This document shows positions 842 through 36,286 of a stretch of DNA of 64,000 nt, in pieces. The notes beneath the pieces were generated by a model. It saw only the letters and a program-made list of their open reading frames with translations. It was not told where the DNA came from and made no database searches. The DNA comes from Candidatus Poribacteria bacterium. Lineage in GTDB: Bacteria > Poribacteria > WGA-4E > GCA-2687025. The position numbers and the translations under genes were made by a program. The stretch is from assembly GCA_026004875.1 (NCBI GenBank), contig BPJZ01000014.1, forward strand, positions 1 to 64,000, read 5' to 3'. Each line of letters opens with the position of its first letter. Within the stretch, counting starts at the first letter, position 1.

Positions 842-1684
842 CTAAGTGGGAAGATCGCCAACGATCTTGGCGACGCTGGTTCGAATCGCCTCCGGGCTGA
901 AGACCCGCTCCTTCCAGTCGGGCTGGAAGAGCGTCTGCTTCGCCTCTTCGATCGCCTTTTTGGCCCCCATGGAGAACTCCCAGTTGATCTCATTAAAGAC
1001 GATGGCCAGTTCCACCTTGAGATGACCCAAAAGAAAGTCTCGAGCGGCGTCGGCAGGGACTCCCCGTCGGATCACCTCGTCCATCGCCTCCCGGATGACC
1101 GTCAGGCAGGTGGCGGCCACCGTCTCGACCAACGGCGGTTCCAAGAGGATCATCTGCTCCAAAGTTAGGCGATAGGACCTGGAGACGGGCCGAAACATCC
1201 GCTTGGCGATGTATTCGCCGACCGAGTAGGCCTTCTCAGGCCCCTGGATCAAAGCGCTCACGATCGCCTGCTTCGCGTATCCGTCGCCCCAGTAGTCCCG
1301 AATCGCCCGAGGGTCGGTCTCGTCGTGAAAGATCGGGGGGTGGGCCGGATGAGTGACAAAGTAGGCTACATCGCTCCGCTTAGGCAGCTTCCCGGCATAC
1401 GGCGCGGCAGGATCCAGAAAGATGGCCACGGCCCCGCGCCGCATGTGGGGCACCGCCTGGGCGGCCACCGAGCCGATCAGGTCGTCCCGAACGGCGAAGA
1501 TTGTCGCCACCGACTGGTGGACCGCACGCGCCAATGGAGTAGGCGTCAGCCCGCGCGAGCGGAGCTTCTCCTCCCCCTCCGGCGTCTCGACGTAAAAAAG
1601 ACGAAACTCCGGATCGCCTTTGAGCGCATTGGCGATCCGGGTCCCCATCGCGCCAGCGGCTCCTAATAGCGCCAAGGTGATCAT
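842..1684 (-). CDS. apnO: D-apionate oxidoisomerase-like protein (6-phosphogluconate dehydrogenase-type)
   Basis: This 280-residue protein has an N-terminal Rossmann fold (GAAGAMG, residues 8-14) and the C-terminal domain of the phosphogluconate dehydrogenase/ApnO group. Recognisable blocks include THPAHPPIFHDE near residue 111 and RREAMDE/ARDFLLGH-like segments further on. In the known pathway ApnO converts D-apionate to 3-oxo-isoapionate. The start is the ATG that overlaps the stop of the upstream hydrolase (ATGA), which implies translational coupling; a longer frame upstream exists but lies inside that gene. Assignment rests on remembered family sequence plus the neighbours (acid-sugar kinase, RuBisCO-like protein, lactonase). 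A different acid-sugar dehydrogenase is the alternative. Confidence 0.75.
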   Translation of the reverse strand: MITLALLGAAGAMGTRIANALKGDPEFRLFYVETPEGEEKLRSRGLTPTPLARAVHQSVATIFAVRDDLIGSVAAQAVPHMRRGAVAIFLDPAAPYAGKLPKRSDVAYFVTHPAHPPIFHDETDPRAIRDYWGDGYAKQAIVSALIQGPEKAYSVGEYIAKRMFRPVSRSYRLTLEQMILLEPPLVETVAATCLTVIREAMDEVIRRGVPADAARDFLLGHLKVELAIVFNEINWEFSMGAKKAIEEAKQTLFQPDWKERVFSPEAIRTSVAKIVGDLPT

Positions 1685-2517
1685 GGCTCTTCGGCTCCTT
1701 GGTTGAGTTCGCGGCGGAAAAACTCCAGCACCTTCCGATCCAGTCCGGGGATGTTCAGCGAATGGTCCGCCTCCGGAAAGGCGAGGAACTCCACCGGAAC
1801 ACCCGACCCCTTGAGGGCCTCGACCAGCAGAACGCTCTGATGGAACGGAACGATCTCGTCGCGCTCCCCGTGAATCACCAGAAACGGCGGACACTCCGAA
1901 CGGATGTAGGTGATCGGGTTGGCTTGTGCGACCCGATCCGGGTGCTCAGAGATCCGACCACCGATCAGCAACGACCAAGGCGAATCGGGAAGATCGGCCA
2001 ACGGCCCAAAGGTATGAGCGTCGTTCTGAAGGAAGTCGGTCGGACCGGCCATGTCGCAGACGGCCTGAACTGCGCTGGACTCCTCCAGGTGCTCCCCCCG
2101 GTCGAACTGACGCGTCCAGCCGGTGACGCCAACCAACGCGGCCAAGTGTCCGCCCGCGGAATGGCCGACTACTCCGATCCGCTCGGGATGGATTCCATAC
2201 TCCCCAGCGTGAGCCCGCAACCACCGAATCGCCGCCTTGCAGTCCTCAAGCTGCGCCGGAAAGATCGCTTCGTGGCTGAGGCGGTAGGAGATGCTAGCGA
2301 CAACAAACCCCTCTCCAGCAAAATGCCAGAAAGGACACGGGTCCTTATCGCCCCCCATCCAGGCCCCGCCGTGAATCCACACGATCAGCGGCTGCGGCCG
2401 CGACGGCAAAGGGACTGGAAGATATAGGTCTAGGCCGAGGTCCCGCTGAGGCGTCCGCCGAAAGCAGAGATCGGCTCGCTTCTCGATCCGGAGACCCTGC
2501 TCTCTCTGAGCGCTCAT
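1681..2517 (-). CDS. alpha/beta hydrolase, BD-FAE/acetylesterase type
   Basis: The 278-residue cytoplasmic esterase-fold protein shows the oxyanion-hole motif HGGAWMGG (residues 49-56), the nucleophile elbow GHSAGG (118-123, Ser120), a candidate acid Asp in HGERDEIVP and a C-terminal His in ADHSLN. This is the carbohydrate-esterase/hormone-sensitive-lipase style triad. It lies 34 bases after the kinase gene and overlaps the next gene by ATGA, so it is an operon member. No published apionate pathway step needs it. It may remove acetyl or other acyl groups from imported apiosyl fragments, which is inference. Confidence 0.8.
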   Translation of the reverse strand: MSAQREQGLRIEKRADLCFRRTPQRDLGLDLYLPVPLPSRPQPLIVWIHGGAWMGGDKDPCPFWHFAGEGFVVASISYRLSHEAIFPAQLEDCKAAIRWLRAHAGEYGIHPERIGVVGHSAGGHLAALVGVTGWTRQFDRGEHLEESSAVQAVCDMAGPTDFLQNDAHTFGPLADLPDSPWSLLIGGRISEHPDRVAQANPITYIRSECPPFLVIHGERDEIVPFHQSVLLVEALKGSGVPVEFLAFPEADHSLNIPGLDRKVLEFFRRELNQGAEEP

Positions 2518-2551
2518 GGTTTCGTCAGGTCCTTTCTCTCAGCCGTGTCTT

Positions 2552-3949
2552 TCAGCCGTGCCGGAAGCGCGGCCTTCCGGCGCGAATGTCTCCCAGCAGC
2601 TCTGCCCATCCGACCTGCCCTCCCTTAAAGAGAATCTCCAAGCCGTCTACGCTCGAATCGTCCGCGTAGGCCCGACAGATCGGTGACCCAGGGGCGATCG
2701 GAGCGAGCATCGTCAACGCTCGGAGACCAAGCTCCTGCGCTGTATAGTAGGACGTGTCCCCACCGGTGACTACCCAACGACGAACCGGCTCGGCTTCCAG
2801 AATCGCTCGGGCCAGCCGTCCCAAAGCCCGACCGAGCAGCTCCGCCGCCCGATGGGGAGGCAGCCCATGGGCAGCCAATCGGTCACGTGTCTGCTCAATC
2901 CGGAGATCGTTTGGTCCACGCGCCGTGTGGAGCACCACGCTCCTTCCTTTTCTCAGAAAGGAGACCGCCGCAGTTGCCGCCGCCTGCAGCGTCTTCCCTT
3001 CCGTCGCAGGGTCCACCAGCAACGGAGTTTCTAGAGGAATCTCCTCAAAACCCTCCGTCAGCGCCGTACCGACCTGCCGATCGGTGACCGGCGAGCAGCT
3101 CCCCGAGAGGACGACTATCCGATCGACCGGCTCGGCCACCGGTCGAGACAAGCTCTCCGGCAACGTTCCGCTCGCCCGCCAGTAGGTCGTCAGCGCGTAC
3201 TCCACGCCCGAAGAGCCAACGACAAGCAACGGACCCGACCGCTCGGCCTCCTGGAAGAGCAAACGGCCTACGGCCAGAAGGTGTTCCGGATAGAGGGTGT
3301 CCAAAAGAAGCGCCCTTGGACGTCGCTCCCAGAGTGCAGCCCAGTGTCGGTCCTGTGCCGGTTCCGGCTCGGCCAGGCGCAGCACGTCAAAGAGGGCGAC
3401 CGCTTCGGTCGGGTTCACCCGCTCGCTGAACTGCTCCGCTAGATGATAACGGAGGTCGCTTTCCCGCATTGGGGTCACCGGATGGCGGCTCATCGTCGGG
3501 TGGCGATCCAGACGGAACGGCTCGCTATCCAGCCCCGAACGGGCAAAGAGGTTGCCGAAGACACAGTAGCGGCCAAGCACCGGCGCCCCGACGACGATCG
3601 GGACCGGGTGCCTTCCAAAGGCCTCCCGACCAAGCTCCAGCGCTCGACCGATGCTCCCCACCTCCGGCGAGGAATCGAAGGTGGAACAGACCTTGTAATG
3701 AACGATCGGCGCGCCCCACCCCCGCAGTTGCTCGAAGACCGGCGGCAGGTGCGCCCCCATCTCTTCCGGTGTCATCGCTCGGCTGGAACCGGCAATCCCC
3801 ATCGCCCGGACCCCCGGGAACCGCCGTTGCCATTCCGCCGTCGGAAGCCCCAAGAACAGCACCGTCGGCACCCCCGCAAGGGCGAGCGCCTCCATCGCGT
3901 CGGTGGAACCGGTGAAGTCGTCGCCGTAAAAGCTCAGCAGCAAACTCAT
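2552..3949 (-). CDS. oiaK: four-carbon acid sugar kinase (DUF1537), probable 3-oxo-isoapionate kinase
   Basis: The 465-residue protein has the two-domain DUF1537 layout. The N-terminal substrate domain begins with YGDDFTGSTD (residues 8-17), and the C-terminal nucleotide-binding domain has GGDTS (396-400) and a following FKGGQVG stretch. DUF1537 kinases phosphorylate four-carbon and branched acid sugars; in apionate catabolism OiaK makes 3-oxo-isoapionate 4-phosphate, the substrate of a RuBisCO-like protein. The ATG at 3949 overlaps the stop of the RuBisCO-like gene (ATGA), and the frame's upstream extension lies inside that gene, so the short start is chosen. Family assignment is firm; the exact substrate follows from the neighbours. 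Confidence 0.87.
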   Translation of the reverse strand: MSLLLSFYGDDFTGSTDAMEALALAGVPTVLFLGLPTAEWQRRFPGVRAMGIAGSSRAMTPEEMGAHLPPVFEQLRGWGAPIVHYKVCSTFDSSPEVGSIGRALELGREAFGRHPVPIVVGAPVLGRYCVFGNLFARSGLDSEPFRLDRHPTMSRHPVTPMRESDLRYHLAEQFSERVNPTEAVALFDVLRLAEPEPAQDRHWAALWERRPRALLLDTLYPEHLLAVGRLLFQEAERSGPLLVVGSSGVEYALTTYWRASGTLPESLSRPVAEPVDRIVVLSGSCSPVTDRQVGTALTEGFEEIPLETPLLVDPATEGKTLQAAATAAVSFLRKGRSVVLHTARGPNDLRIEQTRDRLAAHGLPPHRAAELLGRALGRLARAILEAEPVRRWVVTGGDTSYYTAQELGLRALTMLAPIAPGSPICRAYADDSSVDGLEILFKGGQVGWAELLGDIRAGRPRFRHG

Positions 3950-5208
3950 TCCCTCGTCCCAAATCGGCGCAGCGCCTCGGCTAGCTCCGGATGGGTGCGA
4001 GCGTACTCCTCCAGCGGAATCCCCCCAACGGCAGCCTCCCAAGCCTGTCGAATGGCTCGGACGCCCGATGCAGGACCGCCCGGATGGGCCATGATCCCCC
4101 CTCCGGCCAGGTACATCAGGTCCACCGTCTGGGTCTGGCGATAGGTCTCCGGAGCCTGACCGCCCCACTGCCCGGAGGAGACCACCGGCATGGCACAGTC
4201 CGAATCCCGAAAGATCGGCGTCAAGCAGGCTCGAATCGAGCGGACGACCGACTCGTTCGGCTCCCAGAACTTGTTGTCCAGCCCGTTCACGTGCAGGTGG
4301 TCCACGCCCAGCAGTCGCCAGAGCTTCTGATAGACGCGAAACTCCATCCCCAGAAGCTCGCAGCGAGTCCACATGCCCCACCCGTTCCGGTGGCCGTGGA
4401 TCGGCAACGCGGCCCGCTGGCGAAGGTAGTGAACCCCCGCCCATCCGACGCTGTTCAGGCTGACCATCACGCAGGTGCCCCCCAGCGCATACACCAGATC
4501 GTGGTGGCGCATCATCGCGTCTAAATCGTCGGTGATGTTCAGCGCAACCATGACCCGCTTTCCGGTTCGATCGGCATGCTCGTGAACCGCTCGGAGAACG
4601 GCTCGGGCGCGCTCGGCAAAGGGAGAGTGGGGCGAGTTGGCCTGCAGCTCGTCGTCCTTGATGAAGTCGATCCCAGCCTCGGCCAGCTCTTGGACCAGCC
4701 GGGCCGTCTGCTCTGGAGTCAACCCAACGCTGGGCTTGACGATCGTCCCGATCACCGGGCGATCGAAGACGCCGGTCAGCTCCCGAGTGCCCGCCACGCC
4801 AAACTGCGGACCCGCATAGGCCCGGCCGTAAGCCTCGGGAAGCTCGAGATCCACCAGCCGCAGGCCGGAAAGCTCCTTAAGCTCATAAAGATTCCCCGCG
4901 ACGGTCGCCAACAGCGTCGGGAGGTTGGTCCCGACATTCTCAAAGGGGAAGGCGATCCGTACCTCTCCCCGGCGGAACCTCTGCGCCACGTTGGGGTACC
5001 GCGCCCCCAGGAGCGTTGGACAGTCAACCTCCCCCAAGGGACGAACCGACTCCACCCGCGCCCGGTGCCGCTCCCGGAGCTCTGCGGTCTCCCCAGGAAC
5101 GGCAACAAAGGTTCCCGAAGACTGCTCCCCGGCAATCGCTTCAGCGGCCTCCTCCAACGAAAGCGGCGTCTCGACCCAGTAGGTCGCCCGAATCCATTCC
5201 TCGCCCAT
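3946..5208 (-). CDS. RuBisCO-like protein, probable 3-oxo-isoapionate-4-phosphate decarboxylase or transcarboxylase/hydrolase
   Basis: The protein is 420 residues and spans both RuBisCO large-subunit domains. Equivalents of catalytic residues are visible with conserved spacing: E28 and T33 (E60, T65), N106 (N123), K158 (K175), K184-D185-D186-E187 (carbamylated K201 and metal ligands D203/E204), H273-R274 (H294-R295), H306 (H327), K313 (loop-6 K334), S345 (S379) and GGG 369-371 (phosphate loop). W66 is replaced by F34. Within an operon holding a DUF1537 kinase, an ApnO-like and an ApnL-like protein, this fits OiaX (decarboxylase to L-erythrulose 1-phosphate) or OiaT (to glycolate and 3-phosphoglycerate). 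Sequence alone does not separate these for me. Starts 5 bases after the dehydrogenase gene. Confidence 0.88.
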   Translation of the reverse strand: MGEEWIRATYWVETPLSLEEAAEAIAGEQSSGTFVAVPGETAELRERHRARVESVRPLGEVDCPTLLGARYPNVAQRFRRGEVRIAFPFENVGTNLPTLLATVAGNLYELKELSGLRLVDLELPEAYGRAYAGPQFGVAGTRELTGVFDRPVIGTIVKPSVGLTPEQTARLVQELAEAGIDFIKDDELQANSPHSPFAERARAVLRAVHEHADRTGKRVMVALNITDDLDAMMRHHDLVYALGGTCVMVSLNSVGWAGVHYLRQRAALPIHGHRNGWGMWTRCELLGMEFRVYQKLWRLLGVDHLHVNGLDNKFWEPNESVVRSIRACLTPIFRDSDCAMPVVSSGQWGGQAPETYRQTQTVDLMYLAGGGIMAHPGGPASGVRAIRQAWEAAVGGIPLEEYARTHPELAEALRRFGTRE

Positions 5209-5213
5209 GCCCC

Positions 5214-6251
5214 TTACGTCTCCTCAAAGTGCAGCACCCGATCCTCGCGGGCCGAGTCGTACGCGCCAAAGAAAAGCCGAGCCGTCTTGAGGTTGTCCGC
5301 CCCGTCCGTCTCCGGCAGCCCGCCCGTCTGGAGCGCCCGCAGCAGATCCCGATGACAATCGACAATGCTGGCATGGATGAGCCCGTAGTCCGGATCGGCC
5401 CAGGCGTAGCGCGGCGGCGGATAGCGGCGCGCAAACGTCCCCTCCTCCGTCGTCAGCCGAACCCAGTAGTCCGGGCCAAGCTCGATCGAACCCCGCTCCC
5501 CTTCGATCAGAAGAAAGGTCTCTGGAAATCGCTCCCGTTCTAATCGGCTCGCGTAGCTCATCTCACAAACGACCGTTGTCCCTGTCGCCCCCATCCGCAT
5601 CATCACGGTGGCCACGTCCTCGCCTCGAATGTCGGGATGGACTCGATGAATCTGGCAGTAAAGGCTCCGCGCCTCTCCAAAGAGGAACCGGGCCACGTCG
5701 AGAATGTGGCTGCCGATATCCGTCAGGATGAACTGATCCAGCTCCTTTAAAAACGGCTGGTTCTCAAAAACGGGAAAGCTGCAGGAGTACTGAATCCGCC
5801 CCCGGAAGACGCGCCCGATCCGCCGCTCGTTCAAAAGTCGCTTCACCTCCCGAAGGGGACGCTGCCAACGCCAGTTCTCATGGATGAAGAACGGCACTCC
5901 CGCCTCCCGACAGACCTGCACCATCCGCTCGGCCAGCTCTAAGTTAGGTGCAATCGGCTTCTGACAGATGACCGGAACCCGATGCTCCGCCGCTAAGAAG
6001 ACAAACCGCGGATGAGTGTCCACGTCGGTGACGATGTCCACAAAATCGGGCCGCTCTTGGCGGATCAACCGCTCAGGATCGTCGTAAACGGCCGGAATAC
6101 CGAACTCTTCGGCGAGCCGCTCCGCCTTCTCCCGAGTGCGATTATAGAGGGCGACTAACTCAACGCCCTCCAGCTCCTTCCAGCCGGCAATCTGATACCG
6201 GGCCCAAAACCCAGCTCCAAAGATCGCCCCCCGTAACGTCCGATCGGCCAT
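5214..6251 (-). CDS. apsD: Gfo/Idh/MocA oxidoreductase, probable D-apiose dehydrogenase
   Basis: The 345-residue NAD(P)-dependent oxidoreductase has an N-terminal Rossmann motif FGAGFWAR (residues 11-18), the family EKP-type motif as CQKP (96-99, catalytic Lys98) and HENWRWQ (124-130) in the substrate region. Known ApsD enzymes belong to this family and oxidise D-apiose at C1 to the lactone. The gene sits 6 bases downstream of the lactonase-like gene and 5 bases upstream of the RuBisCO-like gene, exactly where an apiose-to-apionolactone step is wanted. Family is certain; the apiose substrate is inferred from the operon. Confidence 0.82.
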   Translation of the reverse strand: MADRTLRGAIFGAGFWARYQIAGWKELEGVELVALYNRTREKAERLAEEFGIPAVYDDPERLIRQERPDFVDIVTDVDTHPRFVFLAAEHRVPVICQKPIAPNLELAERMVQVCREAGVPFFIHENWRWQRPLREVKRLLNERRIGRVFRGRIQYSCSFPVFENQPFLKELDQFILTDIGSHILDVARFLFGEARSLYCQIHRVHPDIRGEDVATVMMRMGATGTTVVCEMSYASRLERERFPETFLLIEGERGSIELGPDYWVRLTTEEGTFARRYPPPRYAWADPDYGLIHASIVDCHRDLLRALQTGGLPETDGADNLKTARLFFGAYDSAREDRVLHFEET

Positions 6252-6257
6252 TGCCTC

Positions 6258-8228
6258 CTATCCTTCCTGAATCCAGTCCAACCGCGCAATCCCGTAGGGG
6301 AGCAGCTCCAGCGTAAGCCGCCCTCCTCGAGCTGGAACCTCTTGAGGAGACCGCTCCCGCTCCGCCTCAGGGGCGGCCATCGCCGACTCGGCGTTCCGTT
6401 CGTCCAGTGTCTTCAAGAGTAGCCGCCCCTCCAACCCTTCAGCCCGCAAAACGATCGTCTGGGGCTCGAAGGTCAGGTTGGCGATTAGAACGCGGCGCCA
6501 GCCCTCTTTCTCCAGGGCCAGCGCCGCAAAACTCAGCGGATCGGAAACGCGAATCGCAAGCCCGGACGCTCCGGCAAACTCCCCCACATCCGCAAAAACG
6601 TGGTACATCGGGAAAACCCCACCAGGAATTGAAGGAAACCGCTCCGGCAGCGGAGAGCCCGCCTCCGTTTCCATCACACCGCGCCAGCCGGTCGTCTCGT
6701 AGTAGGTTACCGAGGCGACGCCGCCGGAGGTTACCGCAGCAAGGCTGCCTAACGTCCAACCGGCGCCGAGCAGCGACATCTGCCGCGCGTCCACCTGGCT
6801 GGGAAGCTCCCCTTCCTCCGGTTCCGGCTCCGGTCCGGTGGCGTTGGGGTTGAAGCGGGGCCGAAGCGTGATCGGCGTGATCACAACCGGGAGGTCGTCC
6901 AGGAATGTCCTGGCGCTTCGGATCGTCTCCGCCTGCATCGGCAGCGTCTCCACCAACGAGGCGTTGTCAAAGGCGTGCACCTGCGGGTTGATCGAGTAGC
7001 AGGCGAAGTCGTAAGAGTCCAACTCCTGGGGCCGATTGCGGTTCAGTTCGGTGAAGTACGCGTTCGTCCCTCCGCCGACCGGCACCGAGGGATCAAAGTC
7101 GGCCAGCGCCCGTTGCGCCAGCCGCACCCAGCGGTCTTCAGTGGCCTTCTCCGACTCGTGAAAGACAAGGAACCGCACGACGTGTGGACGAACGCGCTCC
7201 AGCTCCTGAATCAAGTCCTCCAATTGACGCACGGGCGATTCGCTCAGAAAAAAGGCCACCTCCAGGCCGGCCCCAAGCGTCTCCGCCTCGCGCCAGGCCC
7301 GTTCCAGCCTTCGGGCATAGGAGGGATCGGATAGACACAGATCCACCCGAAGATGGCTTAAATGGAGCCGCCGAAGGCGGTCCACCTCCCGCGCGCTCAA
7401 CGGCTGCCCGTGCGAGGCGATTCCCAGCCCAATCGGGGGAAGGGGAAAACTCTGGGCCGGGTCGAGCACCACCTCTCCAGGCCCTTCTGAAGGCGGAGGC
7501 AAAGCCCGCCAGCCCTCCAGAGCTCCCAACAGCCGAACGGTCACCCGCTGTTGAATCCGCGTGCCCGCCGGGACTTCGACGGGAAAGGGAAGCGCCAACG
7601 GCGTGCAGTAGGTCTTAAACGAAGCGTCCGTCCAGTTCCGTTGGTCCTCCATCTCGAAGACGTCGCCCTCCAAGCGAACTTCAGCCCAAAGCCCCGGCGC
7701 CACCTCGTGGGCAATGGCCCGAATCTCAAAAAACGGCTGATGGGGCGAAATGAACTCGGGAAATCGCGACTCCTCGACCGATCCGTCGGTGTGCATCACT
7801 CGGCAGGCCGAACCGGCGCACTCTGCAGGATGAAGGACACAAAACCCGATCCGATTCCGGCGAAAGGTGGAACGCGCCTCCCCATCCATTGAGAATTGAA
7901 CCGTTCCGTCCGGTTCCCCGAGAATCTCTCCGCGCCAGAAGAAGTGAATCTCTCGCCGCCGACAGATCACCTCAAAGGAGAGCCGAAATGAATCCTCCCC
8001 CTCCTCGACGCGCAGGCGTTCGAGATGAGGCGGCACCGTGTCCCAATTGGCGTCCCGGACGGCAACGTAAAGACCTCGCAGAACCTCTACCGAGCCGACC
8101 CGAAGGTAACGAAGAAAGGCCCAGTCCGGCTCAAAGACCATCCGCATCGGCCCAGCTTGTAGAAAGATGCGCTCTGCAGGGGGGTCCGGCGTTCCGTCGT
8201 ACAGGACCAACGGCGAAAGGGTACGCAT
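6258..8228 (-). CDS. apnL: D-apionolactonase-like protein
   Basis: First gene of the operon, 656 residues, no signal peptide. It has an N-terminal beta domain (to about residue 240, including QRNWTDASFKTY), a central segment resembling a clan-A TIM barrel (about 255-570) and a C-terminal beta domain. Length and the QRNWTDASFKTY block match my memory of ApnL lactonases, which open D-apionolactone to D-apionate. The position ahead of a Gfo/Idh/MocA dehydrogenase and a RuBisCO-like/DUF1537 pair supports this. The alternative is an uncharacterised glycoside hydrolase-like protein. The leader 8229-8352 holds its promoter. Confidence 0.75.
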   Translation of the reverse strand: MRTLSPLVLYDGTPDPPAERIFLQAGPMRMVFEPDWAFLRYLRVGSVEVLRGLYVAVRDANWDTVPPHLERLRVEEGEDSFRLSFEVICRRREIHFFWRGEILGEPDGTVQFSMDGEARSTFRRNRIGFCVLHPAECAGSACRVMHTDGSVEESRFPEFISPHQPFFEIRAIAHEVAPGLWAEVRLEGDVFEMEDQRNWTDASFKTYCTPLALPFPVEVPAGTRIQQRVTVRLLGALEGWRALPPPSEGPGEVVLDPAQSFPLPPIGLGIASHGQPLSAREVDRLRRLHLSHLRVDLCLSDPSYARRLERAWREAETLGAGLEVAFFLSESPVRQLEDLIQELERVRPHVVRFLVFHESEKATEDRWVRLAQRALADFDPSVPVGGGTNAYFTELNRNRPQELDSYDFACYSINPQVHAFDNASLVETLPMQAETIRSARTFLDDLPVVITPITLRPRFNPNATGPEPEPEEGELPSQVDARQMSLLGAGWTLGSLAAVTSGGVASVTYYETTGWRGVMETEAGSPLPERFPSIPGGVFPMYHVFADVGEFAGASGLAIRVSDPLSFAALALEKEGWRRVLIANLTFEPQTIVLRAEGLEGRLLLKTLDERNAESAMAAPEAERERSPQEVPARGGRLTLELLPYGIARLDWIQEG

Positions 8229-8352: not shown

Positions 8353-10056
8353 ATGTCTCTTGAGCACTACTTGCAGGAGCGAGAAAACCGGTACGATCCG
8401 GAGGTGCAGCTTCTTCGCGCTCGGTTCCACGGACCCGGTTACCACTCGACCACACCGCCGGGGACCTGGGTGCACCCGACCCGTGAGTCGGCCGAGTACG
8501 CCTTAGCGCTACTCCTGTCCGGAACGCCGGAACGGATCGAACGAGGATGGGCGGTCCTCCGGCGCGTGCTCTCCCTCCAGGACACCGACCCGGACAGCCG
8601 CACCTACGGAGTCTGGCCGTGGCACCTGGAAGAGCCGCTGGAGAAGATGAGCCCGCCCGATTTGAACTGGGCCGACTTCATCGGCGCAACGCTGGCAACC
8701 ATCCTGATCCGCGCCGGAGACCGGCTCTCCAGCGAGCTGATGGCTCAAACACGCGCAGCGCTGGGCCACGCCTGCCGCGCAATCAAACGGCGAAACGTCG
8801 GCCCGGCCTACACCAACATCGCGATCATGGGCGCAGGGGTGACGCTAGCCGGAGGGGAGCTCCTCGACGACCCGGCGTTGCTCCGTTACGGGCGAGATCG
8901 GCTCCGCCGAATTCGGGAGTTCACCGCCTACCACGGGACCTTCACCGAGTACAACAGTCCCACTTATACGCTCGTAGCGCTCCGCGAGCTAGAGCGCATC
9001 CTTGCCCTGGTCCAAGACGCCCAAGCGCGCGACGACGCCCAGGCGCTCCTGGAGGTCGCCTGGGAGGTGATCGCCGAGCATTTCCACCCCTCGACCGGCC
9101 AGTGGGTCGGCCCGCACAGCCGTTCCTACGCCGACTGGCTTGACGCCGGCAAAGCTCGACAGATCGCCGAACGAACCGGCGTTCCTATCCTCATTCGTCA
9201 GCCGGACGGCTCCGCGCGGTCTACCGAGGAGCTCCCGGAGGACGGAGCTCACTTTGTTCCGCCGATGCGGTGTCCCAAACGGCTGGTCGAGCGGTTCCGC
9301 AGTCTTCCTTCCGACCCTTACTTCTTGCGACAACGATTGCTTCGGGCCGAGGAGGACCCGGAACTTGACTTCGGCGACCCAGAGGTCCACCGACTGCTCG
9401 CCGAAGCGAAAGGACTCTACGGATTCACCTGGTTCACCCAGGAGGCGGCCTTGGGCTCGGTCAATCGGGGGGTCTTCTGGACTCAACAGCGGCCTCTAAT
9501 CGGTTATTGGCGGACGCCGGAGGACCTGGCCGTCTGTCTTCGGCTCCGCTTTCTCCACGACGGGCGCGATTTCGCCTCGGCTACCTACCAAGGTGTTCAG
9601 CGCAACAATCGGGTGCTCTGCACCGTTGGGCTCCGGCTTGGCGGCGGAGACTGGCACCTCAGCTTGGACCGCCCCGCGGACAACCGATTCGAAGCAGAAG
9701 ACTTCCGGCTTCGCTGGCAGCTCACAGGCCGCGGCGTCTCCATCCACGCGGTGGACGAACGCCGTTACCTCCTTCAGGCCGGGGGCTGGAAAGCGGTCGT
9801 CCACATCGGAGCCGGGCGGTTCGGCAACGACCCAATCCGATGGGAGACTACGGAGGCGGAGGGAGAGATCCGCCTGGACGGCGTTTGCTACTCCGGCCCA
9901 CGGCGGACGTTCGATTTCACCCGTCTTCTCGATTCGCAGATCGTCACCGGGGTGGAGTTGATTCCTGTCAGCGAGAGCCCTTCGGAGGAGCCGATCCGCA
10001 TCCCTGCTGCAGGGAACGGCGCGTCCGCGATCGAATGGTGCGGCCTGCGGCTCTGA
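8353..10056 (+). CDS. conserved hypothetical, probable alpha/alpha-toroid carbohydrate-active protein
   Basis: 567 residues, no signal peptide, no family recognised with confidence. The first 270 residues are predicted mostly helical with recurring aromatic and acidic motifs (YGVWPWHLEE near 86, YTNIAIMG near 150, YHGTFTEYNSPTY near 193), like (alpha/alpha)6 toroids of polysaccharide lyases and unsaturated glucuronyl hydrolases. The last 200 residues look like a beta-sandwich with many Trp. This two-domain layout resembles heparinase II/III and alginate-lyase-type enzymes but no catalytic set is identifiable. It is transcribed divergently from the apionate operon, so a role in releasing apiose-containing fragments is plausible but unproven. 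Ends 7 bases before hisH, convergently. Confidence 0.75.
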   Translation: MSLEHYLQERENRYDPEVQLLRARFHGPGYHSTTPPGTWVHPTRESAEYALALLLSGTPERIERGWAVLRRVLSLQDTDPDSRTYGVWPWHLEEPLEKMSPPDLNWADFIGATLATILIRAGDRLSSELMAQTRAALGHACRAIKRRNVGPAYTNIAIMGAGVTLAGGELLDDPALLRYGRDRLRRIREFTAYHGTFTEYNSPTYTLVALRELERILALVQDAQARDDAQALLEVAWEVIAEHFHPSTGQWVGPHSRSYADWLDAGKARQIAERTGVPILIRQPDGSARSTEELPEDGAHFVPPMRCPKRLVERFRSLPSDPYFLRQRLLRAEEDPELDFGDPEVHRLLAEAKGLYGFTWFTQEAALGSVNRGVFWTQQRPLIGYWRTPEDLAVCLRLRFLHDGRDFASATYQGVQRNNRVLCTVGLRLGGGDWHLSLDRPADNRFEAEDFRLRWQLTGRGVSIHAVDERRYLLQAGGWKAVVHIGAGRFGNDPIRWETTEAEGEIRLDGVCYSGPRRTFDFTRLLDSQIVTGVELIPVSESPSEEPIRIPAAGNGASAIEWCGLRL

Positions 10057-10063
10057 GGGGCGG

Positions 10064-10681
10064 TCACCGGCGCTCTCGGAGCCACTCCCCAAAGGCCCGG
10101 AGGATGCTCAACCCCACCTGCTGGCTCTTTTCAGGGTGAAACTGGGTCGCAAACAGCGGACCGCACCAAATCGAGGAGGCAAACTCAACGTCGTACTCGG
10201 TCACCGTCGCGACGACGGCGGGGTCCTCCGGAACTCCGTAGTAGGAATGAACAAAGTAGACGAAATCCCCCTCCTGCACGTCGCGGAGGTGCGGAGCCCG
10301 TCGCCGGATGGAAAGCTGATTCCATCCCATATGGGGAACCTTGACCCGGGCATCGTTAAAGCGGCGGCAGGTTCCTCGAAGCAACCCCAATCCGGGAACG
10401 CCGGGCGCCTCGGCGCTGGAGTCGAAGAGAAGCTGAAGTCCTAAGCAGATGCCAAGATAGGGCACCTCCCGAGAGACGGCGTCTCGGATCGCTTCAGCGA
10501 GGCCTAACTGGTTGAGCCGCTCCATCGCAGCGCCAAAAGAGCCCTGTCCGGGAAGGACGATCGCTTCGGCGGTGGCGATCTGGTCCGGGTCGTCGGTGAT
10601 CACGGCGGCGACACCGGCCCGTTCTAGGCCTTTTTGGACGCTGCGCAGATTCCCCATTCCGTAGTCCACAATTGCGGTCAT
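10064..10681 (-). CDS. hisH: imidazole glycerol phosphate synthase, glutamine amidotransferase subunit
   Basis: 205 residues, a class-I glutamine amidotransferase. The nucleophile Cys79 lies in [11 protein letters not shown], the P-loop-like LPGQGSFG is near 43, and His182/Glu184 complete the triad in TQFHPEKSQ. It supplies ammonia to HisF for imidazole ring formation in histidine synthesis. HisF is not in the window. The ATG overlaps the hisB stop (ATGA), so the two are translationally coupled, and it closes the visible histidine operon. Confidence 0.96.
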
Positions 10682-11268
10682 TCCAACCGCCCCTTTGAGG
10701 AGAGCACTCCCTTCACGCGGGGGTCCAGCGCGGTGGCTTGATCGAGCGCCCGTCCGAAGGCCTTGAAGACAGCTTCAATGATATGGTGCCGATTTCTGCC
10801 GTAGGGAACGTTCACGTGGAGCGTTGCCCCAGCGTGGTTGGCAAAGCCGTGGAAGAACTCTTCAGCCAGCTCAACGTCGAAATCGCCCACCTTTCCCCCC
10901 TCCAAAGGGGTGTTCCAGACCAGATAAGGGCGACCGCACAGGTCCAGGTGAACGTGGGCGAGCGCTTCGTACATCGGCACCGTCTCGCCGCCAAAGCGCC
11001 GCAGACCGCTCTTGTCGCCCACCGCCTGGGCGACCGCCATCCCCAAGCAGATGCCCACGTCTTCGGTCGTATGGTGAGCGTCTACGTGAAGGTCGCCCTC
11101 CGCTACGACGTTGAGATCAAAAAAGCCGTGCTTTGCGAACAGCTCCAGCATATGGTCCAAAAAGCCGACGCCGGTGCGAACCTCCGCCATCCCTTGGCCG
11201 TCCAGGACCAGGCTCAGGCGGATTCGGGTCTCCCGCGTCTCGCGGACCACCTGTCCTACGCGCTCCAA
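10678..11268 (-). CDS. hisB: imidazoleglycerol-phosphate dehydratase (TTG start)
   Basis: Catalyses dehydration of imidazoleglycerol phosphate to imidazoleacetol phosphate. Monofunctional type with the two metal-binding His clusters: DAHHTTED and [15 protein letters not shown], plus GFLDHML. I choose the TTG at 11268 because GGAGAGGAG lies 6 bases upstream and the resulting 196 residues match the family length; a longer open frame runs back into the preceding gene. The upstream membrane-protein stop is only 17 bases before this start. Overlaps hisH by ATGA. Confidence 0.94.
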
Positions 11269-22225: not shown

Positions 22226-22897
22226 CTATCGGATCGAAGCCCCACGGATTGGGGGTCTGGGCGGACGAGGCTCTAGAAAGGCACATTCCCCCCGACAGGG
22301 GCGCCCTTTCTGAAAGTTAGGGCAGACCGCCGCCTGCCGATGGAGGATCGCGAAAATACATTGATCAAACGCGTCGGCGCGGGCGTGCCACTCGGCGGGG
22401 GTGTCCGTCGGCAAAAAGGCCGCTGCCCCTCGTTGTCGCATCCGCTCGAAGAGCTCTCGATTGTTGGCGTCCCCAAGAGGCACCGCCTTCAGGTGGGGCT
22501 GAATCTCGTGAGCCAGTTGAATAAATGCCCCCGGCGACGGACGGCCAGCGTCGAACAGAACCGCTCGGGCGTGATAGGCGCGCAGTTTCGCGTGCCCGAT
22601 CCGGTTGTCCGGCGCTTCAGCGACGGCCAGCCCCAGCCCTCGCAGATATTGCGCTAAGCCCCGCCGAATCCCCTCTGGAAAGCCGATCACCATATAATCC
22701 ACCGTCAGCGGCGTCTCTTCGTCGAACAGTTCCTCATGAAGCCAAACCTCGCTGGTCTCCGCGTAAAGCTCGACCTCCCGCTCAAGGAGCTCGTCCACCG
22801 GCTCGATCAGTTGCCGCGACGCCTCGCGTATTCGCTCCTCCAGCCGCTCCCAGAGCGCTTCGCTAGCTTCATAAGAGTTGATCGGCAGCCGTCGCAT
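22226..22897 (-). CDS. hypothetical protein, degenerate receiver-like domain plus C-terminal Cys cluster
   Basis: 223 residues, no known family. An N-terminal helical region (residues 1-65, rich in Glu/Arg, likely coiled coil) leads to an alpha/beta segment (about 66-190) with receiver-like alternation but no phospho-acceptor Asp in the expected place. It ends in CPNFQKGRPCRGECAF, C-x8-C-x3-C, resembling a CCCH zinc finger lacking its His. Its start abuts the GH38-like gene stop (one shared base), so the two are one operon. Confidence 0.7.
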   Translation of the reverse strand: MRRLPINSYEASEALWERLEERIREASRQLIEPVDELLEREVELYAETSEVWLHEELFDEETPLTVDYMVIGFPEGIRRGLAQYLRGLGLAVAEAPDNRIGHAKLRAYHARAVLFDAGRPSPGAFIQLAHEIQPHLKAVPLGDANNRELFERMRQRGAAAFLPTDTPAEWHARADAFDQCIFAILHRQAAVCPNFQKGRPCRGECAFLEPRPPRPPIRGASIR

Positions 22898-25552
22898 TAC
22901 GTCTCTCCAGGGACCAGTTCCAACGTTACGATCTGAAACCCGGCCACGGACAAGATCAGTTTCCCCTCTTCGGTAAGGGAAAGCGGCTCCAGACGCGTTT
23001 CGTCCATTCGAGCCCGGTAGACCTCACGAACCGGGAGCCCAAACGAAAGCTCCGCCGTCTGCTCGTCTCGGAACGGATTGTAAAACCGAACGATCCAGGA
23101 GTCACGATCCTCAGCCAGCTTGAAGGCCGAGAGGACCAACCGGCGCGGGCTCAGGTCCAAAAAGCTCCCGCGAGGCGGCAGCCGACCCGCGTGGGCGTCC
23201 GTCTGAACGGCCCGCAGCGGGACGAGAACGCGCTGGGCCACCGCCACGGCGCCGGACTCCTCCAGTCGCTTCCCGTGCGGGATGATCGCGTACTCCGCGT
23301 GATGACGACCAGGAGACTGAGCGTCCGGCGTCGGAATTCCCCAACGCTCGTCCGTCTGTCCCACGGCGCGCAGAAGTGTCAGCGCCACGGTGTTCTGCCC
23401 GTCGCGGAGGACCTCGTACTCCGTCAGCCCCGCTGCCGCGACGGTCAACCCCCGCCGGAAGTCGCTGACGTCCACGTAGCCGTAACAAGGCTGCAGATAG
23501 GAAGGATTCTCCCAACCGCTCCAAGGCTGAATCGGTCGTTTGACCGCCTCAAATTGTCCCCCTACCGTCACCCGCTTGGCCTCAATTCGCGTGGGGAAGA
23601 GCGCTCGAATCCGGTGGTTCCACCGGGCGTTGTCTATCGAGGTCCCAATTTGAAGCGCAGGCAACCCCTGAACAAGCGTTAGCTCGCTGGAAACGATAAC
23701 GTTCCCCTTGGAGGTGGGCAGCCTGCCGGTGATTCGGTACCGCATCCGAAGCGGATTCCGCTCCACGTTTCGAATCTCCAGAGCCGGATAAGGCGGCTCC
23801 ACTGCTTCGCCCAGGTGGACGATCTCGTCCGACTCTGCCGGACGGTACTCCTGGGCGTCTCCGGCCTCCGAAGCGTCCTCAATCCAGTGGAGCCCCCCAA
23901 ACGAGGCTCCCGACTGTCGGTTGGTGATCGTCAGGCGTCCGTCCGTTCCGATCTTGACGATCAGCGAATCGTTTTGAAACGGCCCGCCGGGATAGCCTCG
24001 CTGGCGCTCCTCCGGGAGCGCTTGGACCCGGTAAGCGGCGTAGCCCACCGCCGGCACGTCGGCCATCATCAGAAAGCGCACCCGCTGGGCCCGTCGGGGA
24101 CGTGGGCGGCCCAGCTCCGGCGAAAGGGTAACCCGTTCCACCTCCAGGCAGACGGCCGGAACGTTGTTCCCGTAGGAATCGGTCACCGAGACGTCGTTCA
24201 CTTGAACGGAAGGATCGAAGATCGCCTCCACTTCGATCGCCTCGCGACGCCGAACGCTCAGCGGATTGAAGACGACCAATCGAACGGTTGACGGATCGTC
24301 CGCCGGAGCCTCAGGGGCATCGCCAAAGCGAGTCTGAACCTGTGCCGCGAGATGGCTCAACGCCTCCTGAATCAGCTCCTCAACCCCGTGCTCAACTTGC
24401 GCTAGCCGCGTTCGCATCTGTCGATGCACCGGGTCCGCCGCATAGCCTCCGATCGCTGGGGGCGTGTGGTTCTCAAGGAGACGCCGCCAGAGATAACGGA
24501 GCATCCCGCGCGGATCCGAAGCGCCGTAAAACCAAGCCAGCGCTGAGAACGGCTCTGCCCAGTGCTCCAAGTCCCGCTGACAGCGCCAGTTGACCCGCTT
24601 GAGGCCCACCCGGGCGCTCAGCCGTCCGTCGCCGGTGCCCCATCCCGGAGTGTACCGGTTGCGAAGCTCTCCGGCCGCCGACGGAAGCCGAGAATCCCCT
24701 TCCGGCTGAGCGGCGACCTCTTCTTCAAGGCTCCAAAGGGCGCCTTTCAGGTCTGCGGTCCGGATTCCGTCCGGCAACACGGTCCTCCTGGCCAGCTCGG
24801 CTAAGCGAAGCAGCTCCCCGTCGGGAAGCCGGTAGAACTCGCCACAGAGTAGCAACAGACGTCTGAGGGGAGAGCGCTTGGCAAGTCGCTCCATCAGCTC
24901 TCGCAGAAGAACGAGCCCCTCCTCTCCTCCCCACTCGTAGAGAACCGTTTGAGGACGGCGCGGTACAAACAACGCATAGATCGAAAGTCCGCCGCGCGAC
25001 TCCCAACGGAGAACCGGCGGGTAGCCCCGAATCGGATCGGGCGTCTTAGGAGGTAGCTCCGGGTCCAGAGCGTTCAGGCCGTCGGAGATTACCGCCCAGG
25101 AGAAGCCAAACTCCCGAAGAATCTGGGGCATCTGACCAATTTGGGAACGAGAGCCGTAAAGCCACCCGACCGGAAGCGGCTCCGTCCCCCATTCTGCGGC
25201 GACGCGACGCCCCTCGATCAGGTTCCGGACCAACGACTCGCCGCTGACAAGAAACGGGTCCGGCCTGAACGTACCATGGACCGATCAATAGCCGCCCCGA
25301 AGCGACCAGCCGCCGGAGCCGCTCCCGCGCTCCAGCACGAATCTCTGCGTAGTCCTCCAGGAGGATCGCCTCTCCGCCCAGCACGATAGCGGGGAACTCC
25401 GGCCGCTCTTCCAGCAGCTCCAGGAGACGATCCAACTCCTGAACCCATCGGAAACGCGTGGATTCAAACGGCAGCAACCATTCCCGTCTCCACTCGACGA
25501 ACGGAACCAGCAGTAGCTGAAAAGGCGCTTCGTTTCGACCCGTCTCCGTCAT
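22897..25552 (-). CDS. GH38 (alpha-mannosidase) fold protein lacking the zinc site; one-base insertion
   Basis: With one extra C removed at 25264-25265 the frame gives 884 residues with GH38 order: N-terminal catalytic (alpha/beta)7 domain, helical middle, C-terminal beta domains. The backbone motifs are easy to follow but the active site is gone. H-x-H-W-D-R-E-W is F18-V-E-W-R-R-E-W, the nucleophile block YLPDSFGH is WLYGSRSQ, and NHPHDS is NHTPPA. All four zinc ligands and the nucleophile are thus replaced. It is likely a non-catalytic binding or regulatory protein, or has different chemistry. Start ATG overlaps a short upstream frame by ATGA and has GGGAAAGGA ahead. Confidence 0.85.
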
Positions 25553-34231: not shown

Positions 34232-34288
34232 CCCACCGGTGCTTAACCGGGGAAAGCGTTGAGAGACCCCAGTGCGGAGGAGCGCTCG

Positions 34289-36286
34289 ATGCCCATCTTG
34301 TGGCCTCTGCTGCTCACAGCCGTTGCGGGGGAAGTTGGCGAGCGCCGACCCAGCCCCTTCGCCGTGGTGCACCCGGTTGGGGTGAGCGAGGTACGGTGGA
34401 CGGAAGGATTCTGGGCACAACGGTTTGCCGTCTGTCGAGACCGCTCGATCCCCGCTATGTGGGAGATCATGCGCGGCGACCGGTACAAACCCTACTACCT
34501 GCACTTTCTGATCGCTGCTGGAGAACGAAGCGGCGACTACCGTGGCGCTCCCTGGAACGACGGCGACTTTTACAAGTTCCTAGAGGGCGTCTGCGCGGTG
34601 CTCGCCCTCACCGATGACCCTCAACTCAAACAGATCCTTCACCGCTCGATCGAAGCGATCGGGAAGGCCCAACGTCAAGACGGCTACCTCCACACGCCGG
34701 TGTTGATCCGCCAGCGGAATGGTGACCGAAGCGCTCAACCGTTCCAGAACCGGCATCATTTCGAGATGTACAACATGGGGCATCTCCTGACGGCGGCCTC
34801 TCTCCACCACCGCGCGACGGGAAGCGAGGCGTTTCTTTCCATCGCCGTCCGCACTGCCGACTTCCTCGAGCGAGCGCTTCAGGGCGCGATGTTTGATCCC
34901 GCGCGGCACGCCGTGTGCCCTTCTCACTATATGGGGCTCGTCGAGCTTTACCGCGAGACGGGGGAACTGCGCTATCTAGAGCTAGCCCGACGGCTCTTTG
35001 AAATCCGCGCTTGCGCCGGCGGCGGAGACGACGACAACCAGGACCGAATTCCGTTCTACGACCAACAGGAGCCGGTCGGCCACGCCGTCCGCGCCAACTA
35101 TCTCTATGCCGGCGCCGCTGACCTGTTCTTAGAGACAGGAGAAGAACGGCTCTGGAAGCCCCTTGAGGCGATCTGGAACAACCTGGTCCAGAAGAAGCTG
35201 TACATCACCGGCGCCTGTGGCGCGCTCTACGACGGTGCTTCGCCGTACGGCTCCCCGGAACAGTCCTCGATTGCACGAGTTCACCAAGCCTACGGGCACA
35301 ACTATCAGCTTCCTAATACGACCGCTCACGGGGAGACCTGCGCCGCTGTGGGCAGCCTCCTCTGGAACTGGCGCATGTTCCTAGCCACCGGCGAGGCGCG
35401 CTACGTGGACCTGATCGAACGAACTCTTTACAACGCCGTCCTAGCAGGAGTCAGTCTGGAAGGGACGGAGTACTTTTACGTCAACCCGCTGAGAAACGTC
35501 GCTCCGCTGCCGCTCAACCTTCGCTGGTCGCGCAGACGGGTGCCGTATGTCACCTCCTATTGCTGCCCTCCAAACGTCCTCCGAACGATCGCTCAGGTCC
35601 ATCGGTACGCCTACGCTCGGTCGGATGGAGCCATCTGGCTGAACCTTTACGGCGGCAACGTGTTGTCCACAACGTTGGACGGAAGGCCTCTTGAGCTGAC
35701 TCAGGCGACCAACTACCCCTGGGAGGGCCGCATCCGAGTAACGGTAAAACGGTGTCCCGACGGCCCGTTTGCGTTGCGATTGCGAGTTCCCGGATGGGCG
35801 GAGTCGGCTACGATCCGGCTCAACGGCCGGCCGGTGGAGTTGGACGCGAAACCGGGCACGTACGCCGAAATCCGGCGCCGATGGCGAGTTGGCGACACTC
35901 TCCAGCTTGATCTCCCGATGCCCGCTCGGCTTTTCGAGTCGCACCCGTACGTCGAGGAGACGTACAATCAGGTCGCCGTTCAACGAGGGCCCCTTGTCTA
36001 CTGCCTTGAATCGCCTGACCTGCCCGAAGGCGTCCGCGTGGACGAGGTGGTGATTCCAGCGGACGCGGAGCTCACGCCACAGCACGAGCCGGAGCTCCTA
36101 GGAGGGGTGACGGTGATCTACGCGACCGCCAGGGCGTTGCCCAGCCGCCGTTGGGACGACGCTCTCTACCGTCCGCTGAGTCATGAACCTTTGCGTCCTC
36201 TGTCTGTCCGGATGATTCCCTATTATGCATGGGCCAACCGAGGCGATTCGGAGATGTCCGTCTGGCTGCGACTTTGCAGAGCATAA
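34289..36286 (+). CDS. GH127-family beta-L-arabinofuranosidase
   Basis: 665 residues. (Alpha/alpha)6 barrel followed by beta-sandwich domains, the DUF1680/GH127 layout. The unusual catalytic zinc-thiolate set is present: Glu and Cys in TAHGETCAAV (near 350) and the double Cys in SYCCPPN (near 425), the latter providing the Cys nucleophile. The enzyme releases L-arabinofuranose from plant glycans. ATG 34289 follows GGAGGAG at 7 bases and gives a short hydrophobic N-terminus (MPILWPLLLTAVAG) that may be a weak signal peptide; a TTG at 34259 is less likely. Monocistronic after the terminator. Confidence 0.9.
   Translation: MPILWPLLLTAVAGEVGERRPSPFAVVHPVGVSEVRWTEGFWAQRFAVCRDRSIPAMWEIMRGDRYKPYYLHFLIAAGERSGDYRGAPWNDGDFYKFLEGVCAVLALTDDPQLKQILHRSIEAIGKAQRQDGYLHTPVLIRQRNGDRSAQPFQNRHHFEMYNMGHLLTAASLHHRATGSEAFLSIAVRTADFLERALQGAMFDPARHAVCPSHYMGLVELYRETGELRYLELARRLFEIRACAGGGDDDNQDRIPFYDQQEPVGHAVRANYLYAGAADLFLETGEERLWKPLEAIWNNLVQKKLYITGACGALYDGASPYGSPEQSSIARVHQAYGHNYQLPNTTAHGETCAAVGSLLWNWRMFLATGEARYVDLIERTLYNAVLAGVSLEGTEYFYVNPLRNVAPLPLNLRWSRRRVPYVTSYCCPPNVLRTIAQVHRYAYARSDGAIWLNLYGGNVLSTTLDGRPLELTQATNYPWEGRIRVTVKRCPDGPFALRLRVPGWAESATIRLNGRPVELDAKPGTYAEIRRRWRVGDTLQLDLPMPARLFESHPYVEETYNQVAVQRGPLVYCLESPDLPEGVRVDEVVIPADAELTPQHEPELLGGVTVIYATARALPSRRWDDALYRPLSHEPLRPLSVRMIPYYAWANRGDSEMSVWLRLCRA

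Follow-up and report, generated by a model that had tools for sequence, protein, structure and literature searches.

The window analysed here is a 64,000-nucleotide stretch of a Candidatus Poribacteria bacterium (assembly GCA_026004875.1, contig BPJZ01000014.1, positions 1 to 64,000), which begins at base 1 of a 96-kb contig in a draft genome of 2.84 Mb that is 64% complete. At 842-8228 on the minus strand, a preliminary description made from the letters alone had noted six overlapping or nearly abutting genes and read them as a complete route from D-apiose through D-apionate to 3-oxo-isoapionate 4-phosphate and a RuBisCO-like protein (RLP). All six genes are present there, close packed on the one strand:

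6258..8228, minus strand: D-apionolactonase (ApnL)-like protein, 656 amino acids (NF049900; percent identity)
5214..6251, minus strand: D-apiose dehydrogenase (ApsD)-like protein of the Gfo/Idh/MocA family, 345 amino acids (PF01408/PF22725; tree)
3946..5208, minus strand: RLP with an OiaT-like active site, 420 amino acids (PF00016; NF042437; residues)
2552..3949, minus strand: 3-oxo-isoapionate kinase (OiaK)-like DUF1537 kinase (PF07005 and PF17042; NF042436; clade)
1681..2517, minus strand: alpha/beta hydrolase of the BD-FAE esterase family, 278 amino acids (PF20434)
842..1684, minus strand: D-apionate oxidoisomerase (ApnO)-like protein (PF16896; identity; tree)

Gaps of 6, 5, and 34 bases separate three pairs of neighbors; in the other two pairs, RLP/kinase and esterase/ApnO, the genes share a 4-base ATGA.

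Curated NCBIfam models matched the ApnL-like protein (NF049900, ApnL, 2e-95), the RLP (NF042437, OiaX, 3e-166), and the kinase (NF042436, OiaK, 2e-146; at 488 bits, its best family by far), while Pfam searches of the window proteins returned PF16896 (3e-55), PF20434 (4e-64), PF00016 (2e-71), and PF01408 (2e-22). Reference operons were taken from the annotated plasmids of Rhizobium etli CFN42 (p42f) and Paraburkholderia sprentiae. Identity to the R. etli proteins was 53% for OiaX, 49% for ApnO, 48% for the kinase, 40% for ApsD, and 32% for ApnL. The ApnL-like protein, to which Pfam gives no match, scored 320 bits on NF049900 over two matched stretches; the R. etli and P. sprentiae ApnL proteins, to each of which it is 32% identical, scored 1050 and 770 bits on this model (cut-off, 750), and its identity to the same gene in a relative (locus L013) was 57%. 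When R. etli ApsD was used as a query against the window genome, the window gene ranked first of 47 hits, with 270 bits as against 152 for the next.

Trees of ApnO, ApnL, ApsD, and the kinase placed the window proteins among operons of other phyla that hold the same partners. The lactonase-like, ApsD-like, and ApnO-like proteins group with other apiose operons and not with unrelated families, and the ApnO-like protein (PF16896, 187 bits; 62% identical to that of the relative G005) is orthologous to the operon ApnO. In the ApsD and ApnL trees, the proteins of these nonproteobacterial operons make up a subfamily of their own, separate from that of Proteobacteria, so that the window ApnL-like protein belongs to a separate, nonproteobacterial ApnL subfamily. 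The kinase falls in a seven-member clade (Shimodaira-Hasegawa-like approximate likelihood ratio test [SH-aLRT], 95), all members of which have ApsD and/or ApnO alongside, and not with another acid-sugar pathway. The cluster thus has the gene content of a D-apiose/D-apionate operon, with ApsD-, ApnL-, ApnO-, and kinase-type genes and an RLP. The esterase (PF20434, 216 bits) had no homologue at 1e-10 in the other loci compared; in G005, the same slot holds an unrelated gene, SGNH-type as read by eye.

In the known pathway, 3-oxo-isoapionate 4-phosphate is the point at which two types of RLP diverge: OiaX yields L-erythrulose 1-phosphate, which requires LerI downstream, and OiaT yields 3-phosphoglycerate and glycolate. 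According to PMC6302742, Carter et al. 2018 found decarboxylation of this substrate by an Agrobacterium RLP and its transcarboxylation/hydrolysis by a Xanthobacter RLP.

The window RLP, the only one in its genome assembly, is 53% identical to R. etli OiaX and 56% identical to the P. sprentiae RLP. We aligned it and its relatives with two form III RuBisCOs; RuBisCO residues are given in spinach numbering. OiaX was represented by four annotated proteins (L094, L095, L113, and L114) and OiaT by proxies from Ancylobacter (L064) and P. sprentiae (L008). Only at S379 (S344 or S345) is the alignment of the catalytic columns ambiguous, and no conclusion depends on that position. The RuBisCO-type catalytic residues expected of OiaT are kept: the window RLP retains the equivalents of K175, K201, D203, E204, H294, R295, H327, K334, G403, and G404 (K158, K184, D186, E187, H273, R274, H306, K313, and G369-371 in window numbering). 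At the K177 position, both form III enzymes have K; S160 of the window RLP, like the S of most of the family, sets aside a true RuBisCO. The substitutions found in all four OiaX proteins, H306Q, N224G, G278D, F314Y, and S160A, are all absent from the window protein, which has H, N, G, F, and S. Outside OiaX, the window residues are all but invariant: the scorable sequences have H at position 306 (H327 of RuBisCO) in 93/93 cases, N at 224 in 95/95, G at 278 in 93/94, and F at 314 in 93/93. Without H327, the latter half of the reaction would presumably be abolished. Two of the four, the OiaX-labeled proteins of Sinorhizobium fredii and Rhizobium CCGE532, sit in aldo/keto reductase clusters that have no LerI within 7 kb and no DerI, and the substrate implied by their label may not be the right one.

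The model scores themselves say little about the type of RLP. NF042437 gave 553 bits for the window protein, 444 for the OiaT-type control, and 409 to 516 for other relatives, all below its cut-off of 700, and no other RLP model was returned by NCBIfam; hence, the OiaX label carries little information. Assignment to OiaX by best match is rejected on these controls together with the active-site residues.

A tree of RLPs rooted on form III RuBisCO has 3NWR and TRAP-linked RLPs at its base, followed by SDR/TRAP/pyk-linked proteins and then by a Firmicute group and two large clades. Clade A (support, 97/91) holds the window RLP, its apiose-type relatives, OiaX on a branch of 0.94, and a GH127-linked group; clade B (95/90) holds the OiaT-type, haloarchaeal, and sphingomonad proteins. 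Placing OiaX outside clade A was not rejected by the approximately unbiased (AU) test (p-AU, 0.351), and placing the window RLP in the OiaT clade B was weakly rejected (p-AU, 0.038), so phylogeny alone does not decide between OiaX and OiaT. The window RLP does not share a clade with the Xanthobacteraceae OiaT type and is orthologous to neither characterized enzyme; this limits the reading of the preliminary description, which had proposed placing it in a tree with the two. In rhizobia, the kinase, ApnO, ApsD, and ApnL fall with their proteobacterial counterparts but OiaX does not, which suggests, at the level of gene trees, that rhizobia replaced an OiaT-type RLP with OiaX.

Genes downstream of the RLP reaction bear on the same choice. 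Two genomes of the same family (G003 and G005; loci L012 and L013) share parts of the gene set. G005, which is 92% complete, has ApsD, RLP, kinase, the SGNH-type protein, and ApnO in one run, with the ApnL-like gene located on a separate contig; in G003, ApnL, ApsD, and RLP are on a contig that ends within the RLP gene, and ApnO is on another, small one. Among all loci compared, LerI was matched only in R. etli, and there was no match in the window's own genome (64% complete). Both G005 and G003 have a single triose-phosphate isomerase (TIM)-family gene, and since G005 is nearly complete, one such gene leaves no room for LerI. LerI and DerI were thus not found to be available; one RpiB-type gene elsewhere in the window genome is not specific. 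A GlcD-like protein scored 510 bits in G003 and G005, and related RLPs adjoin pyk/eno, consistent with 3-phosphoglycerate as a product. More widely, RLP-kinase pairs are clustered with ApnO in haloarchaea and with SDR and TRAP genes in bacteria (L011 and L080; L092, L096, and L099); pyruvate kinase and/or enolase lies beside the L011, L092, L096, and L099 clusters, which fits the same product.

Since the active-site residues are kept, LerI is missing, and the TIM-family gene is single, OiaT-type chemistry is the best reading, and the locus is probably an apiose operon whose RLP carries it out. The slight preference for OiaT in the preliminary description is strengthened by these residues and by the single TIM-family gene of G005 and of G003. 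The substrates and reactions of the enzymes are predicted from sequence. The ApsD-like protein would oxidize D-apiose to apionolactone, which the ApnL-like protein would open to D-apionate; the ApnO-like protein would convert D-apionate to 3-oxo-isoapionate by oxidation and hydroxymethyl migration, and the OiaK-like kinase would phosphorylate this at C4. The RLP would then decarboxylate the beta-keto acid, put CO2 back on the neighboring carbon, and hydrolyze the product to 3-phosphoglycerate and glycolate, of which the former would enter glycolysis and the latter glycolate oxidation. Of the "complete" pathway, the ApsD-, ApnL-, ApnO-, OiaK-, and RLP-type genes are in place; the claim falls short in that no transporter is visible in the operon, which runs into the contig edge of a 64% complete genome. 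A transporter or an isomerase may lie past the contig end, a gap that G005 fills by kinship only.

Apiose, a branched sugar found in plant pectin, is a component of rhamnogalacturonan II (RG-II), as is aceric acid according to the title of one reference. Outside the operon, the window has a gene that may be read in this light:

34259..36286, plus strand: GH127 aceric acid hydrolase-like protein (NF049879; PF07944)

This protein scored 900 bits on NF049879 (cut-off, 950) and is 57% identical to a Bythopirellula GH127 (L038); the G005 GH127 scored 926 bits on the same model. In a close verrucomicrobial relative (L014), the gene next to ApsD on its upstream side is of the apiosidase family (PF13204, 222 bits); clustering found apiosidase homologues in seven more RLP loci, L016 among them, and full-scoring apiosidases occur in G003 and G005, with weak ones only in the window genome. 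In the verrucomicrobial L016, the RLP gene (9911-11254) is split into two reading frames. The RG-II context independently supports the apiose reading, which stands on family matches, trees, the rank of ApsD (270 versus 152 bits), and this context.

The GH127-linked group of clade A comprises 30 loci, with the kinase in 29, an Asp/Glu-racemase-family gene in 27, a bile-acid/PanS-type sodium symporter in 26, GH127 in 19, and ApnO in none. Loci with clustered RLP, DUF1537 kinase, racemase-family, and symporter genes include L010, L030, L038, L040, L042, L044, L060, L067, L084, and L087 and their relatives. Against the aceric acid hydrolase cut-off of 950 bits, the GH127s of L067 (1176) and L050 in clade B (1019) pass, and those of L038 (943) and L087 (873) fall below; those of L098 (87) and L082 (96) are outside the family. 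These clusters are a candidate for an undescribed route of aceric acid catabolism within the clade, which we propose tentatively; a limited literature search found no paper on aceric acid catabolism via an RLP. A ketose aceric acid 1-phosphate, CH2OP-CO-C(OH)(COOH)-CHOH-CH3, would correspond directly to 3-oxo-isoapionate 4-phosphate, and its cleavage by the RLP would give 3-phosphoglycerate and lactate. The window genome combines one RLP with an aceric acid hydrolase-like gene, and there a single enzyme might serve both sugars. No racemase-symporter set lies beside the window GH127: the window genome yielded no racemase homologue and the window itself neither a racemase nor a symporter homologue, and the racemase homologues of G003 and G005 are apart from both GH127 and RLP.

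Within the phylum, strong ApnO matches occur in only 5/85 genomes, those other than the window genome, G003, and G005 being G059 and G060. The best RLP matches are scattered across phyla, and apiose-type neighborhoods with related RLPs occur in Verrucomicrobiota, Armatimonadota, Planctomycetota, Latescibacterota, Trueperaceae, Acidobacteriota, and Bacteroidota.

Two characterized systems resemble the operon. Like it, the R. etli p42f cluster (OiaX, kinase, LerI, DerI, ApnO, ABC transporter, ApsD, and ApnL) combines ApsD, ApnL, ApnO, a DUF1537 kinase, and an RLP of the same family; it differs in having LerI, DerI, and an ABC transporter, none of which is in the window operon, in an RLP that has lost H327 and other residues kept by the window RLP, and in a kinase, ApnO, ApsD, and ApnL of proteobacterial type. 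The Xanthobacter autotrophicus-type OiaT system, seen through L064 and L008, has ApnO, OiaK, RLP, and ApnL without LerI/DerI (and ApsD in L008), and the active-site residues of these proxies are identical to those of the window RLP; the RLPs, however, are in different clades, and the window operon has a BD-FAE esterase in addition, with no transporter visible. The closest solved structure to the window RLP, the RLP 3NWR of the PDB (443 bits), is on the basal TRAP-linked branch with L115 and L117. The hamamelose-pathway RLP (Kim et al. 2018, as cited in PMC8914248) likewise acts at the end of a pathway for a branched-sugar acid, one with links to 3-phosphoglycerate and glycolate, but it is described as an oxygenase.

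Several observations weigh against an apiose operon with an OiaT-type RLP. The equivalog cut-offs were all missed (ApnL, 320/750 bits; OiaX, 553/700; OiaK, 488/700), and we therefore do not claim membership of the curated equivalogs. Reference OiaT is represented by proxies only. The window RLP is in the OiaX-containing clade, and its placement in the OiaT clade is weakly rejected. The glcD-like match of the window genome (L133, G000:C20:27723-29733) consists of several frames with stops and may be a glycolate oxidase gene in decay or the product of frameshifts or assembly errors. Elsewhere in the class, there are ApnL-like genes with neither ApnO nor RLP: those of L138, L139, and L141 (in G042, G030, and G010) are 50 to 52% identical to the window ApnL, in genomes with no strong ApnO and no close RLP. 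The lactonase has another use in those bacteria, and ApnL is therefore an unreliable marker of the pathway.

Other explanations were weighed. The same apiose pathway could end in an OiaX decarboxylase, with L-erythrulose 1-phosphate converted to erythrose 4-phosphate via LerI and DerI; OiaX is the nearest curated model and shares a supported clade with the window RLP. We consider this unlikely, since the label is a default in a search that returned no OiaT model and gave the OiaT-type control 444 bits, the window lacks every OiaX-specific substitution, and no LerI is found in its own genome or in related loci, the 92% complete G005 having a single TIM gene. Slightly less likely still is that the operon serves a different branched acid sugar (hamamelonate or aceric acid, for instance) and has recruited its enzymes from the apiose pathway. 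Related RLP-kinase pairs are found with SDR/TRAP genes or GH127 and without ApnO, an Ochrobactrum RLP acts in hamamelose catabolism (PMC8914248), and a gene resembling that of aceric acid hydrolase is part of the window genome. The window, however, groups with ApsD/ApnL/ApnO operons in each tree, the ApnO-like gene is missing from the GH127-linked loci of clade A, and the racemase and symporter homologues are lacking as noted above. Finally, Gfo/Idh/MocA proteins, DUF1537 proteins, and alpha/beta hydrolases are abundant, as the 47 ApsD-like hits in the window genome illustrate, and such common catabolic genes might have gathered by chance with no joint pathway; given the ATGA overlaps, the short gaps, and the recurrence of the set in two relatives and many phyla, this is very unlikely.

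The operon is flanked by a further gene at the contig end:

2..832, minus strand: BNR/sialidase-like protein, cut by the contig end (PF13088)

Its start is 9 bases past the ApnO stop (PF13088, 72 bits), and it is a possible seventh member of the operon; sialidase-family genes are also near the RLP loci L032, L034, and L098. Divergent from the operon, 8353-10056 on the plus strand encodes a 567-amino-acid protein that matches nothing in Pfam or NCBIfam and has no homologue among the compared loci. At 22897-25233 on the minus strand, the window encodes GH38-like alpha-mannosidase domains (PF17677 and PF07748).

The apiose pathway, known from Proteobacteria, is here extended to a poorly known phylum, and apiose-type operons with an RLP of this kind occur in at least seven other groups. 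The comparison offers a residue rule for calling OiaT-type and OiaX-type proteins, His327 of RuBisCO being kept in the former and replaced by Gln in the latter, and a warning that the current NCBIfam OiaX model draws in proteins without the OiaX active site. The step from a RuBisCO-like transcarboxylase/hydrolase to a plain decarboxylase becomes testable by swapping a few residues.

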